A stretch of DNA of 64,000 bases from Reichenbachiella ulvae. Its GTDB lineage: Bacteria; Bacteroidota; Bacteroidia; Cytophagales; Cyclobacteriaceae. Each line of letters begins with the position of its first letter. Position 1 is the stretch's first letter. The position numbers and the translations under genes are program-made. The stretch covers positions 4,216,001 to 4,280,000 of the forward strand of contig NZ_JAOYOD010000001.1 in NCBI RefSeq assembly GCF_025833875.1. Reading direction: 5' to 3'. Below the pieces are notes generated by a model. That model was not told where the DNA came from. It saw only the letters and a program-made list of their open reading frames with translations, and searched no databases. This document shows, one piece after another, positions 7,201 to 50,921 of this stretch.

Positions 7201-9245
7201 TCTGGAGTGATGTTGACTCGGCGAACGCCTCTTACGTCCATTACTCCCTCATCAAAATGTAGCGTGGCATTCGATCCTTTGGAAGGCGAAACTGAGCTGA
7301 TCAAGAAGCTGTCATAGTCTTTCAACTTATTGTATGACATTTGGTAGTGATAGGCCTTTCGGAGTACGGTGATCTGACCCGATTCCTTGTCATAGGTGAT
7401 ATATTGGTTTTGCTCTAGAAACACTGCAGCTGCATCAGCCAATTCCAATTTGATTTGGTAGGCATCTACCAGCTCCAGAACATTGAATTTCGAATCCTGG
7501 ATCTTACGCGAATATTGGACGACCAGCATGATGGGGTGGAAACCAAATAAACCGGTCATTTTTTTGTATCGTATTTCGTTGAAGTAATCCTCTGATTCGA
7601 AAAGAGCAGGTACACGGTTAGCAGCATTGAGAATCTTTAGGTCCAGATAGGAAGAGTCCAGGTTCCACTGAATCATGTCCGTTTGGAATTCCATTTTGAA
7701 GAAGGACGAATAATAGTAAGTATGTTTATATCCTCCTGGATCTTTTAGCAGGGTCAATTTCGAAATGGCTGCATCATAATTGACTCCCACTGCCGGATGA
7801 TAAATAGAATCAGATTGGTGATATAGCACAATGGAGGACCGATTGGCGGTGATCAATGAATCTTGAAATTCGTACTCATAGGATCTACTTGTAAAACTAC
7901 GGTCTTCCGGGGCAGTCACAGTCAGGGTGGACAGATCCTTGGAGATAGATCTTCCATATTTACGAGCTCCTTTCATGGCAAATCCTCCTACATACTTGAT
8001 GTTGTCTCCAGGAAGCTTTAACTCAATATCTGCTTTATTCGAAGTAAATACGGGATACATTTTCTCATCCGTTTTTCTTCTTTTTCCACTTTTGAAGTAA
8101 AAAACACCTGGCACAGGATTGTCAAACATCTGAGGATAGGTCATTTCAGCTCTTGCTGTTTTGATGGCAGGCTTGTTTGTGTCAAAAGAAAAGCCATTGA
8201 GTTTAACTACAGCGCCATCGGTACCTTGAAGATCATCTGGCCAGTCGATCTCACCACTGGTTCCTACGAATTTTTGATCCTTGATCAAAAAACTACCTTT
8301 TACATTTTTGATGGTGAGTGTGTCATAGGGAGTGGCGATTTTAAATTCCATGCCCGTAACTTCGATGACTGGCCCTCCAACAATCGGATCTATGTCATTG
8401 GATTGAGCCAGCGCCACTAGATCCGGTTTTTCGAAAGCATAAAGCTTTCTTTCATAGGTTTCTTTTTGTTCTGGTTCGTCCTCAATAAACCCACCGTCAT
8501 CCACACTGTCCCAGGTCGAATCGTCATTGCCGCCCCAGCTGTCGTTTCCCCAGCCATCATCCGCACCCCAATCGTCCGCTGTATCCCAGCTGTCGTCACT
8601 TCCCCAATCATCAGATGCCCAACTGTCATTTGCAGCTTCATCCACATTTGGGAGTGGTTCATCTTCGACAATAAATTCTTCTTCAGGCTCATCTTCTTCC
8701 ACGACCTCTTCGGTCAGTGGATTGCTGGGTGCTGCAGCTTCTTCTTTTAGAGCAATGGTAAATGTGCCTCCTTTACTTTTAAGCTTGTTGTAATGAGAGT
8801 GATATAGCGTGCCCTCTGCGAAAAAGTAAGCCATGTTTTTGTAGAGAGTAATGATCTCATTTTTCTCGTAAAGGTCAACTGCATGATGGCAGATGTTGAG
8901 TACTTCAGAAAACTGATCATTGGTCAGACCTTCTTGCTCGTGAGCATGAGTAATCAAACTAAAAAACAAGGTATAGTATGGCCTAGTTGATAAGCGACGA
9001 TCATCCATTTTGGTACAGATGGCAATCAGCGAGGTTTTTTGATCATCAGTGATTTTGCTGTCCCAGATGTTCTGAAAATCATAGGCAATTTTGTCCGTCT
9101 GTTCACTTTGGAGTGCGCGGAGATTTCGTACCACATCTACAGCAAAGCTATCTGGCTGTGGGGCAAAGCCAAAGTATTGGGCTGCCGCCAGATGCGTGCC
9201 TAGGGTACATAGCAGAACGAGAAATAAACACCTGTTTTTGAACAT
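4230..9245 (-). CDS. Very large secreted protein of unknown function, 1671 aa
   Basis: A signal peptide (MFKNRCLFLVLLCTLGTHLA, cleavage near AAAQ) precedes a helical domain (about 25-150), an acidic low-complexity linker (about 165-260) dense in Trp-Asp pairs such as DDWGSDDSWDTADDWG, and roughly 1200 residues of beta-rich sequence with recurring phrases like GMFNGMVNAGTYRYHG and GFVSLDMESQGRYDYW. These resemble LptA/OstA- or AsmA-like beta-repeats, by pattern only. The tail (about 1620-1671) is extremely acidic and ends in EEEDDGF. No beta-barrel signature or type IX domain was seen. It follows prmA by 62 nt and may be co-transcribed, although a -7-like TATCTTTA at 9270-9277 (minus) suggests its own promoter. 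Function unknown. Confidence 0.9.
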   Translation of the reverse strand: MFKNRCLFLVLLCTLGTHLAAAQYFGFAPQPDSFAVDVVRNLRALQSEQTDKIAYDFQNIWDSKITDDQKTSLIAICTKMDDRRLSTRPYYTLFFSLITHAHEQEGLTNDQFSEVLNICHHAVDLYEKNEIITLYKNMAYFFAEGTLYHSHYNKLKSKGGTFTIALKEEAAAPSNPLTEEVVEEDEPEEEFIVEDEPLPNVDEAANDSWASDDWGSDDSWDTADDWGADDGWGNDSWGGNDDSTWDSVDDGGFIEDEPEQKETYERKLYAFEKPDLVALAQSNDIDPIVGGPVIEVTGMEFKIATPYDTLTIKNVKGSFLIKDQKFVGTSGEIDWPDDLQGTDGAVVKLNGFSFDTNKPAIKTARAEMTYPQMFDNPVPGVFYFKSGKRRKTDEKMYPVFTSNKADIELKLPGDNIKYVGGFAMKGARKYGRSISKDLSTLTVTAPEDRSFTSRSYEYEFQDSLITANRSSIVLYHQSDSIYHPAVGVNYDAAISKLTLLKDPGGYKHTYYYSSFFKMEFQTDMIQWNLDSSYLDLKILNAANRVPALFESEDYFNEIRYKKMTGLFGFHPIMLVVQYSRKIQDSKFNVLELVDAYQIKLELADAAAVFLEQNQYITYDKESGQITVLRKAYHYQMSYNKLKDYDSFLISSVSPSKGSNATLHFDEGVMDVRGVRRVNITPDTEVYIEPDSSLLSLTKNKGMKFNGMVNAGTYRYHGKETSFNYDAYLVEMPHIDSINIQVDFHEKNNSQKEELSNHLELTSGTLYINHPKNKAGLRKYSQYPYFVSDSEAIVYFDKKDILNGAYDRSIYFIVPPFEMDSSNLGEVSAIGFEGDFYSGGFFPTFKETLRIMPDKSLGFEHQIPEEGYQLYQGEGKLYGSITLNSGGLRASGRIDFRTTTVYSDEFIFYMDSVSAVGQDGLIREGQVEEASYPEAKLTNFKMLWRPRKDSMYVENTAAPFEFYNATATLDGKANITLNGVYGSGEMLTRGSKTESEEFQFSQYEYFGQHSDFEILTDNPEKPAMAGSDLDVHFDLVKNIANVHPEVQGVAAISFPYAQMKTSIPDAVWYLDSAKVVMSKPDYIDIDHSYFYTTREELDSLAFSATEAIYHMDSYDLNIKGIPFIRVADAEIIPDNNETTILENAVLQPFNNAKLKIDTLNGYHNLFDGNLTVISRNKFTGSATYELVNTAKDTFAIEFASFDLKELKRPDGKIKTMTVSGGTITDGENIRISPGFYFKGDVTMYADQKSLAKKGFVSLDMESQGRYDYWISYETPGDTADVELKIEDSRTEQGEDVTAGLLIDETTSDIYMAIGRPRNNLEDEYFFPAKGILSYDLDKKEFKIQQANRRSLKGFSGKSFVYNDRTGQLNFDGKLDLIRNRDKFNLTTSIVGEGLPDSSTYEMNAMIGIHMDLHKELIATMTSDILDMIERLGPHAAHNNDESLMIKLANIVGDQAALNYEEKLLNDYTPLYSASHSLLKTLLISDIDLKWSSDYHAWYNTSMIGLSNIQDVDLNAATEGFMEITKDEEGEDVVQLFFQFSPSTWYYFSYKGGRLLLYSANEEFNNLVAEHSTVAKIGFGEYTTVLGDEFEVTDFIDGFRRKYYNIDDQYNLSFPDGAHLEVQEEESYETIEDETEDLNTFEEEHADTFDEIIEEDTPPNEEEKDDEEEDDGF

Positions 9246-23125: not shown

Positions 23126-23158
23126 GGGACTCGCGACTATGTCCGAGTCCCTTGTTTT
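23126..23158 (+). terminator. Rho-independent terminator after the T9SS cargo gene
   Basis: GGGACTCG (23126-23133) pairs with CGAGTCCC (23144-23151) around a 10-nt loop and is followed by TTGTTTT. It lies 33 nt past the stop. On the minus strand there is no T run, so it mainly serves the plus-strand gene. Confidence 0.8.
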
Positions 23159-24557
23159 ATTTCAGAGTCAAAACCAATGTGCTGATCGATTCACCTTTGA
23201 ATTCCAGCTCTTGAGTTAGATCCACATCAACCGAGACAAAATGTTCGTCTTCCAGACTGTAATACATCTCAGCTGTGGCTATTTCATTTCCTGTGATCTC
23301 CAAATCGCGGTTCACTGCGCTAGTATTTGCATTAACCACAACCAAAGTAATCGCAGTTCCCTCTGGATTCAGGAAGGCAACCTGATCCAATGTTTCGTCC
23401 ATATCCACTTCGATTCGTTTGTATCCCCCATCTACATATTTGGCATAATGCTTCATCAAGTGATAAAATGGCGTCAAGGTATAATTGCCATTACTCTGAA
23501 CCTGAAACATGGCCAGGTCAGAATCTTCTGCCCACATCAGGGTCCAATAGAGGTAGGCCGAAACATTTCCTTCCCTAACGTTGATGTTGATGAATTGTGC
23601 CGTTTTGATCCAATCGAGACCGTCATACTCTGTCATGATCTTAGGCTTATCGCTAAAATTCGTGCCCAGACTGGCCAGCGTAGATTGCATGTCACTGATC
23701 GAACTGCTATTGTTGAAGTTGTAGGGGTGAAAGCCATAGGCGCCTAAGCTCGGATGATTGGAGAGAACCTCAGCAAAGTCGTCAAAGGCACCTGACGACA
23801 AGTTTGCAGACTCTGGACCCAGCATGATGGGTTTTGAATCTCGTGCATCCAGCAGTTTGGATACCTCCTCGAATGCTACATCATAACCCGGAAGGCTGGA
23901 GGTTTCTGATGGTGCCCATTCGCAGGTCTCCCAATCCGCCAGCCAGGTAGGTTCATTTTGAATGCTGAGGTAGTCAGGCATAAATGAAATGTTGTCCAAC
24001 ATGTCGATCGTATATTCAGCAAAGGCATCATACATAAATTCACCTGCTTCTTGCTTGAGTGTCCCACGATTCAAGGAACCATTACTCTTGAGTGCAGAGG
24101 GTGGGCCCCATGAACTCAGTAGCACCTTCACATCCGGATTAGCTGCTTTCACCAAATCGTAGAGTTCGTCCGTAGCTGTAAAGTGATTGATGAACCAGCT
24201 GGTCTCCATCTGGTCGGGTACTTTGTTATTTGGATAGTCCACAGGATAATACCAGTTTTTGAGCCTCACCATATCCATTCCGAGATCATTGACCATCAGA
24301 TCGATGATTTCGTTTTTCTTACTGCTGCTGGTAATACGGTCACAGTACCAGGTCAGTGCCCCACCGAAACCGATCATCTCCTGGTGTTGATTCGAGGGGT
24401 CAATACTAATCTCTACCGTTTCCTCGGGTGTTTCAATTGGTGTCCCTGTGTTGTCGTCCGGTTTGCTGACTTCATCGTCACCACCACACGCTCCTAGCAA
24501 CAGCAAAGATGCAAGCATCAAGGTTACCCTTCCCTTCTTTAGTAATTTGTCTTTCAT
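23157..24557 (-). CDS. Glycoside hydrolase family 30 lipoprotein
   Basis: A lipoprotein signal (LLLLGACGG, lipid-accepting C24) is followed by a Pro/Thr-rich linker and a GH30 (beta/alpha)8 barrel with the C-terminal beta domain. GH30 hallmarks are visible: QEMIGFGGALTWYC at about 59-72, SIQNEPTW with acid/base E202, and KIMTEYDGLDW with nucleophile E310. GH30 enzymes retain configuration and act on beta-glucans, xylans or glucosylceramide; the subfamily cannot be assigned here. The enzyme should sit on the outer membrane facing polysaccharide substrates. It is convergent with the T9SS gene. A perfect 17-nt inverted repeat lies 42 nt upstream of the start. Confidence 0.9.
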   Translation of the reverse strand: MKDKLLKKGRVTLMLASLLLLGACGGDDEVSKPDDNTGTPIETPEETVEISIDPSNQHQEMIGFGGALTWYCDRITSSSKKNEIIDLMVNDLGMDMVRLKNWYYPVDYPNNKVPDQMETSWFINHFTATDELYDLVKAANPDVKVLLSSWGPPSALKSNGSLNRGTLKQEAGEFMYDAFAEYTIDMLDNISFMPDYLSIQNEPTWLADWETCEWAPSETSSLPGYDVAFEEVSKLLDARDSKPIMLGPESANLSSGAFDDFAEVLSNHPSLGAYGFHPYNFNNSSSISDMQSTLASLGTNFSDKPKIMTEYDGLDWIKTAQFININVREGNVSAYLYWTLMWAEDSDLAMFQVQSNGNYTLTPFYHLMKHYAKYVDGGYKRIEVDMDETLDQVAFLNPEGTAITLVVVNANTSAVNRDLEITGNEIATAEMYYSLEDEHFVSVDVDLTQELEFKGESISTLVLTLK

Positions 24558-24598: not shown

Positions 24599-24615
24599 CC
24601 CTTTGAGTCAAAGGG
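24599..24615. promoter_or_regulatory. Perfect inverted repeat upstream of GH30 gene, candidate operator
   Basis: CCCTTTGA-G-TCAAAGGG is an 8+1+8 perfect inverted repeat whose nearer end is 42 nt upstream of the GH30 ATG. Position and symmetry suit a repressor or activator site. A 1-nt loop does not suit a terminator. Confidence 0.45.
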
Positions 24616-24702: not shown

Positions 24703-24954
24703 CAAAAAATGCTTACCCCAAAATGGAATATGCCCACCATCGACTGGAAAATGCACATCGATAACTGGAAAATGAACGTCATCAGATAGAAAATGACCCT
24801 CCCCCGGCGGAAAATGACCATCGCTGACCAAAAAATGTATGCCGTCAGTCAGAAAATGTGCATCATTCGCTGGAAAATGACCACCATCCAGTAAAAAACG
24901 AGTGTCTCAAACCAAAAAATCACCATCGTGAGTTAAAAAATGGGCATCTTATGA
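24703..24954. repeat. Degenerate tandem array, 12 units of exactly 21 bp
   Basis: Twelve consecutive units start at 24703, 24724, 24745 and so on to 24934 without a single indel. Each opens with a purine-rich core like TGGAAAATG or CAAAAAATG and often has CATC at unit positions 12-15. The rest of each unit varies. Each unit therefore carries an A4-A6 tract, placed once per two B-DNA turns. The array ends 56 nt before the ATG of the TRAP-binding-protein gene. Confidence 0.9.
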
Positions 24955-25009
24955 TTGGGTGGGGTTATTCGCTGAATTACTTATCTTCGACGATCTAACG
25001 AAGCATGCT

Positions 25010-26110
25010 ATGTCAGATCAGAATAGAAGAAAGTTCATCAAGGCAGGAAGTTTAGCACTGGCAGCAGGGGTAACGGGCACCTTAGCCTCCTGTGGAGAAA
25101 GCAAAAAATCTGCTGTAGATACTCCCAATATCAATTTCAACAAGAACTATCAGTGGAAAATGGTGACCACCTGGCCTCCAAATTTCCCTGTATTGGGTGA
25201 AGGCTGCAAGCTGCTCGCCCAATGGGTGAAGGAGATGAGCGGCGGTCGACTCAAGATAGAAGTCTATGGTGGAGGCGAACTGATTCCATCACTCGAGTGC
25301 TTCGATGCAGTTAGTCATGGTGCCGTAGAGATGGCCAGCGGTTCCGGCTACTATTGGGCGGGGAAATTACCCGCTGCTACCCTCTTTTCATCCGTACCCT
25401 TTGGAGTGACTGCTCAGCAGATGAACACCTGGATTCTGAATGCCGGAGGTCTGCAGCTCTGGGAAGAAATCTATGCACCTTTCAATCTCCTTCCTCTCCC
25501 TGGCGGTAACACCGGGCAGCAAGCTGGCGGCTGGTACAACAAAGAAATCAACAACCTGTCGGATTACGAAGGTCTGAAAATTCGTATGCCTGGCCTGGGC
25601 GGAAAGATGATCAAGAAAGCAGGTGGTAATGCGGTGCTCGTGGCTGGTGGCGAACTCTTCACCAATCTAGAACGTGGCGTCATCGATGCAACAGAATGGA
25701 TCGGCCCCTATCACGACTACAAAATGGGCTTTCATCGAGTCGCGAAACATTACTATTTCCCCGGTTGGCACGAGCCGGGCACGGTTCTGGAGATGATGAT
25801 GAACAAAGACAAGTTCCTGGAACTACCTCTGGACATTCAAGAAATCCTAAAAACGGCTTGCCTGAAACTAAACCAATGGATGCTGCTAGAATTCGAAGCG
25901 AAAAATGCCATCTACCTGCAGAAAATGCTGGACGAAGGGGTGGACATTCGCACCTTCCCAGCGGAAGTATTGGACGGCATGCGACGCATAGGTCAGGAGG
26001 TCATCACCGAACTGACCGACACAGATCCCCAAAGCAAAAAGATCTACGAGCACTTTTTGGATTTCAGGAAGAAAGCGGAGCTGTGGAGTCGTGTGAGTGA
26101 GGGAAGATAA
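25010..26110 (+). CDS. TRAP transporter DctP-family substrate-binding protein (Tat lipoprotein)
   Basis: The chosen ATG gives a 366-aa product beginning MSDQNRRKFIKAGSLALAAG, a twin-arginine signal, followed by a lipobox-like LASC. An upstream start at 24959 would bury this signal behind 17 extra residues. The mature part matches the periplasmic TRAP ligand-binding family: YQWKMVTTWPPNFPVLGEG, LKIEVYGGGELIPSLECFDAV, GLKIRMPGLGGKMIKKAGG and LERGVIDATEWIGPYHD. The group includes TakP-like 2-oxoacid binders, whose ligand arginine corresponds to R in KIRMPG. No DctQ/DctM membrane genes are nearby, so it is an orphan here. Confidence 0.9.
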   Translation: MSDQNRRKFIKAGSLALAAGVTGTLASCGESKKSAVDTPNINFNKNYQWKMVTTWPPNFPVLGEGCKLLAQWVKEMSGGRLKIEVYGGGELIPSLECFDAVSHGAVEMASGSGYYWAGKLPAATLFSSVPFGVTAQQMNTWILNAGGLQLWEEIYAPFNLLPLPGGNTGQQAGGWYNKEINNLSDYEGLKIRMPGLGGKMIKKAGGNAVLVAGGELFTNLERGVIDATEWIGPYHDYKMGFHRVAKHYYFPGWHEPGTVLEMMMNKDKFLELPLDIQEILKTACLKLNQWMLLEFEAKNAIYLQKMLDEGVDIRTFPAEVLDGMRRIGQEVITELTDTDPQSKKIYEHFLDFRKKAELWSRVSEGR

Positions 26111-26213: not shown

Positions 26214-26465
26214 ATGTTAGTGATCAGCAGCAGAGAATTCAGACAAAATCAGAAAGAGTATTTTGAAAAGGTGGATCAAGGCGAACAGGTAATCGTGCAA
26301 CGCGGCAAGGACAAAGCCTATATTCTCACTCCTGTCACCAAGGATGATTTGTACTTTAATGCTGAAATGGTTGAAAAAATAAGAAACAGCATTTCTGAAA
26401 TCAACCAAGGGAAATCTAAAAAAGTCAACAGTCCTGAAGAAATCAATCAATTACTTGGTCTATGA
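26214..26465 (+). CDS. Antitoxin, Phd/YefM family
   Basis: The 83-aa product begins MLVISSREFRQNQKEYFEKV and continues QGEQVIVQRGKDKAYILTPV, the conserved DNA-binding N-terminal fold of Phd/YefM antitoxins. The charged C-terminal tail (SEINQGKSKKVNSPEEINQL) would fold on the toxin. The stop overlaps the toxin start by four bases. A palindrome in front of the gene is its likely operator. Confidence 0.92.
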   Translation: MLVISSREFRQNQKEYFEKVDQGEQVIVQRGKDKAYILTPVTKDDLYFNAEMVEKIRNSISEINQGKSKKVNSPEEINQLLGL

Positions 26466-26740
26466 TTTATGTGCTCGAATTTTCGAAAACAGCATTAGAA
26501 GATATCGAGAAACACAAAAAATCAGGTGATCAAGCTACGCTCAAGAAGATCCAAAAACTCTTAATCGAACTTACAGAACATCCAAGAACTGGAACTGGAC
26601 AGCCCGAATTATTAAAACACAACCTGGCAGGACTATATTCAAGGCGAATCAATCAAAAACATCGTCTCGTCTATGCTATTGAAGAGAAAAAAGTAATTGT
26701 ACATGTACTTAGTGCATATTCACATTATGGGGATAAATGA
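26462..26740 (+). CDS. Toxin, YoeB/Txe family mRNA endonuclease
   Basis: YoeB-type toxins cleave mRNA in the ribosomal A site. The 92-aa product (full length for the family) shows LEFSKTALEDIEKHKKSGD, then TGQPELLKHNLAGLYSRRIN, then HRLVYAIEEKKVIVHVLSAY and a final SHYGDK. Acid/base residues known from YoeB have counterparts at E49 and R61 or R68, with H88 near the C-terminal catalytic position. It appears intact and is coupled to the antitoxin by a 4-bp overlap. Confidence 0.92.
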   Translation: MIYVLEFSKTALEDIEKHKKSGDQATLKKIQKLLIELTEHPRTGTGQPELLKHNLAGLYSRRINQKHRLVYAIEEKKVIVHVLSAYSHYGDK

Positions 26741-27169: not shown

Positions 27170-27361
27170 CTAATTTCGTCGATCATCTGCTGAGGATTCT
27201 GGACAGGAGTATGGGAAGCTTTCTATTTTGGCTACTGACGACTGAAGTTCTGAAAGAAAATTCTGCTTAGTTTGCTCGCCCCATTCGTCTGAAAGATACT
27301 TAATCAACACCTCAAGTTTAAACTCTACTACTGGGGAGAGATAAACCTTGTGTTTCTTCAT
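27170..27361 (-). pseudogene. Truncated ParE/RelE-family toxin
   Basis: The 63-residue frame begins MKKHKVYLSPVVEFKLEVLI and reads DEWGEQTKQNFLSELQSSV and KIESFPYSCPESS, typical of the N-terminal two-thirds of ParE/RelE toxins. It then stops at DDRRN, where the family continues for about 30-35 more residues carrying the C-terminal strands. No reading frame downstream restores that part: a shift gives only a few residues before another stop. Probably an inactive remnant. Its start overlaps the antitoxin stop by four bases. Confidence 0.65.
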
Positions 27362-27570
27362 TTTACTTTTTCAATGAAAGATTCAAAAGAAGCTCTATTC
27401 CCCTTATTTAGCTGGTTAATGGCGATTTGAATTTCCTCTTTCTCAACATCGGTAAGCGTAAAACTACCTTGTTCTGTCAAAACCAAGTTTCTAATCTTTT
27501 CAAGAATAGATGGGTTATCCAAGTTAAGGATGAGTTTTGCTAGTTCTATTTTTGAGGTCTGAAGATCCAT
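27358..27570 (-). CDS. Antitoxin partner of the truncated ParE-like toxin, 70 aa
   Basis: The product begins MDLQTSKIELAKLILNLDNP and continues LEKIRNLVLTE, the conserved start of small Bacteroidota antitoxins found next to ParE/RelE toxins. The ATG at 27568-27570 is preferred over a TTG two codons upstream. The -7 box TATCTTTG lies only 3 nt before the ATG, so the mRNA may be leaderless. The antitoxin appears intact although its toxin is not. Confidence 0.75.
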   Translation of the reverse strand: MDLQTSKIELAKLILNLDNPSILEKIRNLVLTEQGSFTLTDVEKEEIQIAINQLNKGNRASFESFIEKVK

Positions 27571-27573
27571 ACC

Positions 27574-27581
27574 CAAAGATA
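27574..27581 (-). promoter_or_regulatory. Candidate -7 box of the second toxin-antitoxin pair
   Basis: TATCTTTG matches TAnnTTTG exactly and ends 3 nt before the antitoxin ATG. Transcription would begin at or within a few bases of the start codon. Confidence 0.45.
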
Positions 27582-50770: not shown

Positions 50771-50921
50771 CCTTAACTTTCTGGGAAGGTCCCCGCTCTT
50801 GTATTTTGATCCCTTCAACAAAAAATTGTGACTCCTCAACACTCATTAGGACTCCCTTAACATAAATTTCTTAGTCCTTAACATGTTTTTGCTATCCCTC
50901 AACGTTGAGGGGCTTTTACTT
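50771..50921. repeat. Second degenerate 21-bp periodic array
   Basis: The motif CTCAAC or CTTAAC followed by a T-rich stretch recurs with AAC starting at 50775, 50817, 50838, 50859, 50880 and 50901. All intervals are multiples of 21 with no indel; the 50796 position is degenerate. Read on the minus strand the units give heptads of the form [T/M/V/L/K]-L-[R/K] plus four variable residues, broken by stops. The last unit forms the palindrome CCCTCAACGTTGAGGG (50897-50912). The sequence is unrelated to the 24703 array, but the period is identical. Confidence 0.75.

Follow-up and report, generated by a model that had tools for sequence, protein, structure and literature searches.

What holds a repeat unit to one exact length while its letters are free to drift? 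The question is raised by an intergenic array in the genome of Reichenbachiella ulvae (G000 below), which the original prediction had singled out as twelve non-coding units of exactly 21 bp with phased A-tracts and for which it had proposed a curved promoter, a nucleation site for a helix-phased protein or the remnant of a heptad-coding sequence. The array lies within a stretch of 64,000 nucleotides that was analysed as a whole and is called the window here. The array and the genes and elements next to it are:

23157..24557, minus strand: GH30-type glycoside hydrolase gene, left flank (PF17189 above cut-off)
24599..24615, no strand: perfect palindrome with 8-bp arms, CCCTTTGA-G-TCAAAGGG, in the gap that separates the GH30 gene from the array (by eye)
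24703..24954, plus strand: family A array of twelve 21-bp units, read in register (62-unit consensus)
24982..24989, plus strand: TATCTTCG box, 5' of the TRAP-type gene and outside the array (by eye)
25010..26110, plus strand: TRAP-type solute-binding protein (DctP) gene, right flank (PF03480, E 2e-55)

All twelve units of the window array measure 21 bp, without an indel, and 55 nt separate its end from the ATG of the TRAP-type gene at 25010. An AAAA tract fills unit columns 4-7 and is whole in 11/12 units, T in column 8 and G in column 9 are each present in 11/12, and C in column 15 is invariant (12/12). Compared with itself the array is identical at 0.57 of positions at lag 21, 0.55 at lag 42 and 0.59 at lag 63, far above the runner-up at lag 21 in the window (0.41, measured over 231 bp). 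When measured over 126 bp, as in the scan of 1.26 Mb described below, it peaks at 0.64 (lag 63); in a second-order Markov null made from these 1.26 Mb, 0.50 over that length was reached nowhere at lags 6-99. Tandem Repeats Finder does not list 24703-24954. Stop codons occur in all six frames and, as predicted, nothing points to coding; as a run of head-to-tail units between 10 and 100 bp outside genes the array is an intergenic minisatellite. It is not a CRISPR, which has near-identical repeats and unique spacers, given that the units here are 21 bp and their columns degenerate in a graded fashion. The palindrome at 24599..24615 is probably unrelated to it. Elsewhere in the window a weaker intergenic stretch of six units with a 21-bp period (50777..50902), unlike family A in sequence, has convergent genes on either side, and two small adjacent ORF pairs near the window array (26214-26740 and 27170-27576) look by eye like type II toxin-antitoxin systems.

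The array has relatives in its own genome. On contig G000:C1, four other full family A arrays are found at 877k, 1884k, 2916k and 4326k and a short one with a one-base shift at 532k, and the two-unit pattern AAAATG-15-AAAATG has 56 matches as opposed to 5 for its backward control. The five full arrays together (62 units, the short array being excluded) yield the plus-strand consensus YRRAAAATGnnYnYCnYnnRn, from which 414/1302 positions differ with zero indels. Columns are far from equal: seven are locked (at least 85% one base), seven are of an R/Y type (at least 90% purine or at least 90% pyrimidine) and seven are free. Purity of the R/Y columns is 62/62 in three cases, 61/62 in two and 58/62 and 56/62 in the rest, with both bases common in most of them. 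Column 12 flips between C and T in 41/57 neighbour pairs over the five arrays; neighbouring units thus tend to alternate between two subtypes, so that the family A array is also ordered at 42 bp. GA at columns 2-3 occurs in 0/57 units, or in 1/62 once the five first units are added. Family A is a direct repeat with no evident palindrome, is found by eye in both senses relative to replication on both sides of skew switches, and has zero matches in plasmid, phage and viral collections.

Is the two-turn pitch peculiar to family A? A blind lag scan over 60 evenly placed stretches and the window (1.26 Mb, about 23% of the genome), in which a place without an open frame of 250 codons counted as non-coding-like, returned 71 such places at a cut of 0.46 versus 34 in the null, so about half of these are noise, and 19 versus none at a cut of 0.54. 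Lags of 21, 41, 42, 63 or 82-84 mark 15 of these 19 strongest places (14/18 without the window array), the remaining four having lags of 14, 23, 35 and 51. A comb scan confined to the 60 stretches, the window being left aside, found 22 non-coding places versus 1 in the null, with a base period of 20.5-21.5 or 41 at 13 of them; two more, called 35 and 14, are by eye a 21-bp (105) and a 42-bp array. Read in register by eye, the strongest places sort into eleven families (A-K), most of which have a unit with a conserved and a variable part. A unit of about 21 bp is the rule in most of them, although 41- and 22-bp members exist. As the families have no core in common, a single sequence-specific protein cannot be the partner of every one. 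With the ten non-A families as one joined query (E 1e-3) there are 29 genome loci, source places counted (B 6, C 5, D 3, E 1, F 4, G 1, H 4, I 1, J 1, K 3), which makes 35 together with the six of family A; beyond loci already read, three of the 29 (D2, K2, H2) were read, and some others are short matches. Further families in the genome are likely because the scan took in only about 23% of it. At one locus (L146 7845-8370; G000 667341-667866), which comprises some 24 units of 21 bp, there is a higher-order repeat of 105 bp as well; the cores are small and palindromic (ACCTCAGAGGT, AGCTTTTAGCT), and purines show a 7-bp harmonic.

The arrays keep to the spaces between genes. None of 15 overlaps a called gene (calls by a simple purpose-made caller), and where both neighbours were called (n=13) the genes are convergent in 4 cases, divergent in 3 and tandem in 6, which is not clearly different from other gaps of at least 250 bp (n=169; 39, 35 and 95, respectively). 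Between copies, moreover, it is the length that is preserved: copied arrays of the D, K and H pairs differ by 100 substitutions and 0 indels, whereas the flanks (those of D, K and H, with the L067/L070 tail added) differ by 48 substitutions and 5 indels (Fisher p 0.004), a comparison that draws on three copied arrays, takes 71 of the 100 substitutions from the K pair and excludes the short family A array. This bears out the earlier claim that spacing rather than sequence has been kept. Unlike in the R/Y columns of family A, transitions and transversions are about balanced in the four copied-segment pairs (D1-D2 13:9, K1-K2 30:41, H1-H2 18:13, L067-L070 tail 14:10; ratios 0.7-1.4), as they are in two TRAP gene comparisons (128:132 and 126:136, about 0.95); a third, in a poor alignment with 47 gaps, gave 186:389. 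As for how copies spread, the match between D1 and D2 sets in exactly at the array start and ends just past a terminator-like hairpin; by eye the family D element (L264; L141 16794-17113) ends in this GC-rich hairpin plus a T run, and D2 is directly preceded by another 21-bp array with a GTCCCGCAGGGAG core. L067 and L070, by eye, are paralogous segments, each with an array, a tail with a hairpin and the beginning of a 226-aa gene. This beginning is broken in L067, where about 7305-7600 (reverse complement) corresponds in decayed form to the gene start and the sequence preceding it at L070 7909-8073. The 226-aa protein beside the L070 array has no Pfam match.

Outside G000 the arrays are patchy. 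In seven sister species the best match to family A is no better than E 0.0155. Of the ten other families, searched at E 1e-5, D and H have matches in G124 and D and B in G148; five of the eight genomes in the genus lack a match to any of the ten. An array function, if there is one, cannot therefore be essential. Period-21 arrays as such are nonetheless found in relatives: 6/7 non-coding places in a comb scan of G124 (400 kb) have 21, 21.5 or 22 bp, and G149 and G151 (400 kb) have one weak period-21 array; 340 kb from 17 other genera yielded none. Arrays of 21-bp pitch were also picked up in other genera through the AAAATG pattern (e.g. L105, L107, L108, L110). The triple pattern, however, matches 9/148 genomes of the family and its backward controls match 7/148, nearly as often, so that sharing of the AAAATG core beyond G000 is unsupported. 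The cleanest test, a search blind to spacing (CCCGGG three times, free gaps of 4-34, 148 genomes), had matches in nine genomes. In three of these (G000, G124 and G007, representing two genera) the distance between cores is 21 in 31/34 cases, 20 twice and 28 once, a count that excludes a G000 match whose first core is an additional one, 7 bp before the array; the arrays of G007, from another genus, are family D as judged by eye. In the other six genomes the 21 distances are scattered between 10 and 40, with five at 20-22. Two 21-bp arrays of G080 (L106, L107), both situated at contig ends, give by eye an impression of polarity: units are near-identical at one end and diverge more and more towards the other, as if growth came from one side. 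A Hydrogenedentota MAG carries a near-perfect 20-bp repeat, GCGTGGAAAATGGTTTTCCA (L113 6376-6500). The idea of IS21-like transposase-binding ends was dropped, as no ORF beside the other-genus arrays looked like a transposase (first 40 residues, by eye).

How do these arrays compare with known systems? Iteron arrays of replicons are direct repeats of about two turns, bound by protein on one face; here, unlike in iterons, there are many chromosomal families, and by eye we noticed no replication genes beside them. Among the papers listed in searches of an open library, none describes a two-turn array class in its title or the abstract shown. Going by the parts of the sources available to us, the closest known systems are BrickBuilt and PgRS of Porphyromonas gingivalis. 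BrickBuilt is a minisatellite/MITE with a 23-nt unit, one family of 19 non-identical dispersed copies, 0-11% mismatches within an element, and a leader and tail with terminal inverted repeats (PMC4596501). Like the G000 arrays it belongs to Bacteroidota, is intergenic, dispersed and nearly species-specific, and consists of imperfect direct repeats whose variation is for the most part confined to one half of the unit (PMC4596501). The G000 arrays differ in being far more degenerate and in that by eye we saw no terminal inverted repeats, and a many-family class with a common unit length does not appear in the available parts of the BrickBuilt paper (PMC4596501). The W83 strain of P. gingivalis also has the 41-nt tandem repeats of PgRS/MITE464 along with 22- and 23-nt repeats (PMC4596501), close to the 41, 21 and 22 bp of G000 when lengths, not sequences, are compared. 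This coincidence, which those parts of the paper do not discuss (PMC4596501), hints that the same length rule may hold in a distant member of the Bacteroidota. TAACTGA heptamer arrays, known from genomes that include five Bacteroidetes, are likewise intergenic, patchily distributed direct repeats, yet have a 7-bp unit of a single fixed sequence and, in the main genome studied, mostly lie just 5' of start codons, with a post-transcriptional role proposed (PMC4679880, as available in part). Separate intergenic arrays of 7- or 8-bp period in G124 and G000 (L211 13350-13900, L153 7036, L138 9975), with CTAGTTAACTGG-like, TAGATGC and GATTCAA units, resemble these known heptamer arrays. REP/BIME elements too are small, dispersed, intergenic and partly palindromic, but according to the portions available they are 20-40 bp palindromes with regular spacing and alternating orientation, as opposed to the direct repeat of family A (PMC2817692, PMC3733652).

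Several explanations can be weighed against this background. That the array is a curved region upstream of the TRAP or GH30 promoter, as originally proposed, was an obvious thought, the genes on either side being divergent and the array having a predicted curvature whose maximum is in the top 1% and whose mean is in the top 4% of the window. Predicted curvature of family A drops once the units are re-spaced to other periods, and it is also high in B, D and H and moderate in C and I; E, F, G, J and K, however, are at or below the window median (5/12 arrays tested). A 10.5-bp harmonic (W or R) is significant in just 2/28 tests (<0.05; families C and D), and E and F appear to show a 7-bp purine harmonic instead. 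Curvature and the 10.5-bp signal being confined to some families, bending is to our minds an extra there and not a general principle, so the phased A-tracts stand up for the window array but not for the class. A promoter role is not supported: no array lies 5' of the TRAP orthologue in any of seven sister species or at five sites next to relatives of two further genes that flank arrays, which excludes a conserved promoter service, other family A arrays sit between convergent (L067) or tandem (L068) genes, and the TATCTTCG box, which is outside the array, recurs by eye 5' of the TRAP orthologue in G068 and G148. This box resembles the Bacteroidota -7 element. We thus regard the curved promoter as highly improbable. 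A remnant of heptad-repeat coding sequence can be argued from 21 bp being seven codons, from a minus-strand frame that is open in 3/5 family A arrays and from best-frame stops below the shuffled mean in 7/11 arrays; none of these is significantly so against column shuffles (lowest fraction 0.12; families B, C, G and H not included). In the open frame, TTT and CAT codons have a fixed third position in 62/62 units while other third positions vary freely, three ORFs have nothing above cut-off in Pfam/NCBIfam, and 41- and 22-bp members do not fit a codon count, all of which leaves this part of the original prediction next to untenable. We also hold it very unlikely that the arrays act as RNA, i.e. 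that a transcribed array pairs with or sponges another RNA and that the R/Y columns reflect G-U wobble. The seven family A columns that vary almost solely by transitions (three of them in 62/62) are as wobble would allow, and on one strand or both the folding of B, C, D, G and H surpasses that of shuffles (z about -2.3 to -3.2), but A, F, J and K have no such advantage, loci with families A, D, H and K have no Rfam match, arrays show no clear orientation bias to genes (n=13), and an RNA has no need of a strict 21-bp pitch. A shared RNA hairpin was rejected for being confined to the palindromic families.

Two further explanations see the array as a product of how DNA moves or multiplies. In one, it would be the passenger of a MITE-like mobile minisatellite, comparable to BrickBuilt and moved by a resident IS transposase. 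Dispersed multi-copy intergenic arrays would agree with this, and so would the D1/D2 matching that starts exactly at the array and stops after the hairpin (by eye), but a check for a leader and tail of the BrickBuilt type, with three further copies compared, found a shared tail with hairpin in D1/D2 and by eye no inverted ends, and neither terminal inverted repeats nor target site duplications are visible at D1/D2 or L067/L070. Since the latter copies take in the start of a neighbouring gene, they look by eye like segmental duplication, and on balance we consider mobility of this kind unlikely. The main rival is that we are dealing with neutral or selfish minisatellites, in which same-face tandem duplication (through slippage, recombination or cutting by a nuclease that measures two turns) fixes unit length at birth and functionless arrays then decay. 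It would explain why unlike sequences have one unit length in common and why families are patchy among species and absent at related places in sisters, and the polar look of the G080 arrays L106 and L107 also suits it. Decay should nevertheless affect columns evenly, yet these differ strongly, and indels, which are present in the flanks, are missing from three copied arrays. A ruler in amplification can account for shared length without function but not for constraint. Neutrality to our minds is a real contender, albeit a doubtful one.

We tentatively prefer, at somewhat less than even confidence, a reading in which these are degenerate intergenic minisatellites that have their unit length locked at about two turns of B-DNA (20.5-22 bp, or 41/42 bp where the unit is a double one) and most likely serve as rows of putative protein sites on one face of the DNA. 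Sites bound side by side on one face would be the simplest account, as this would explain both the missing indels and the unequal columns. Each unit may be envisaged as one site for a DNA-binding protein or oligomer, the two-turn pitch setting every site on the same face, which would allow the protein to line up along the DNA; in family A, recognition might involve the A4 tract with TG and a shape-like R/Y pattern, possibly helped by curvature. The role would then be one of DNA organisation or silencing between genes and not that of a promoter for a flanking gene. A nucleation site for a helix-phased protein, the remaining suggestion of the original prediction, is close to this and possible.

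That eleven families in G000 agree in unit length and not in sequence points to a length rule. Carried further, one might think of a satellite-like intergenic DNA throughout Bacteroidota in which the two-turn length is selected and sequence is free, read or written by a candidate nucleoid protein that forms oligomers or by machinery that measures two turns, in likeness to eukaryotic satellites, whose units are tied to the nucleosome; we consider a class this wide somewhat unlikely. If the length rule stems from binding, it would reveal a nucleoid protein that assembles along one face of the DNA; if it stems from amplification, it would show how bacterial minisatellites arise. Either way, it may account for the 41-, 22- and 23-nt repeats reported in P. 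gingivalis.
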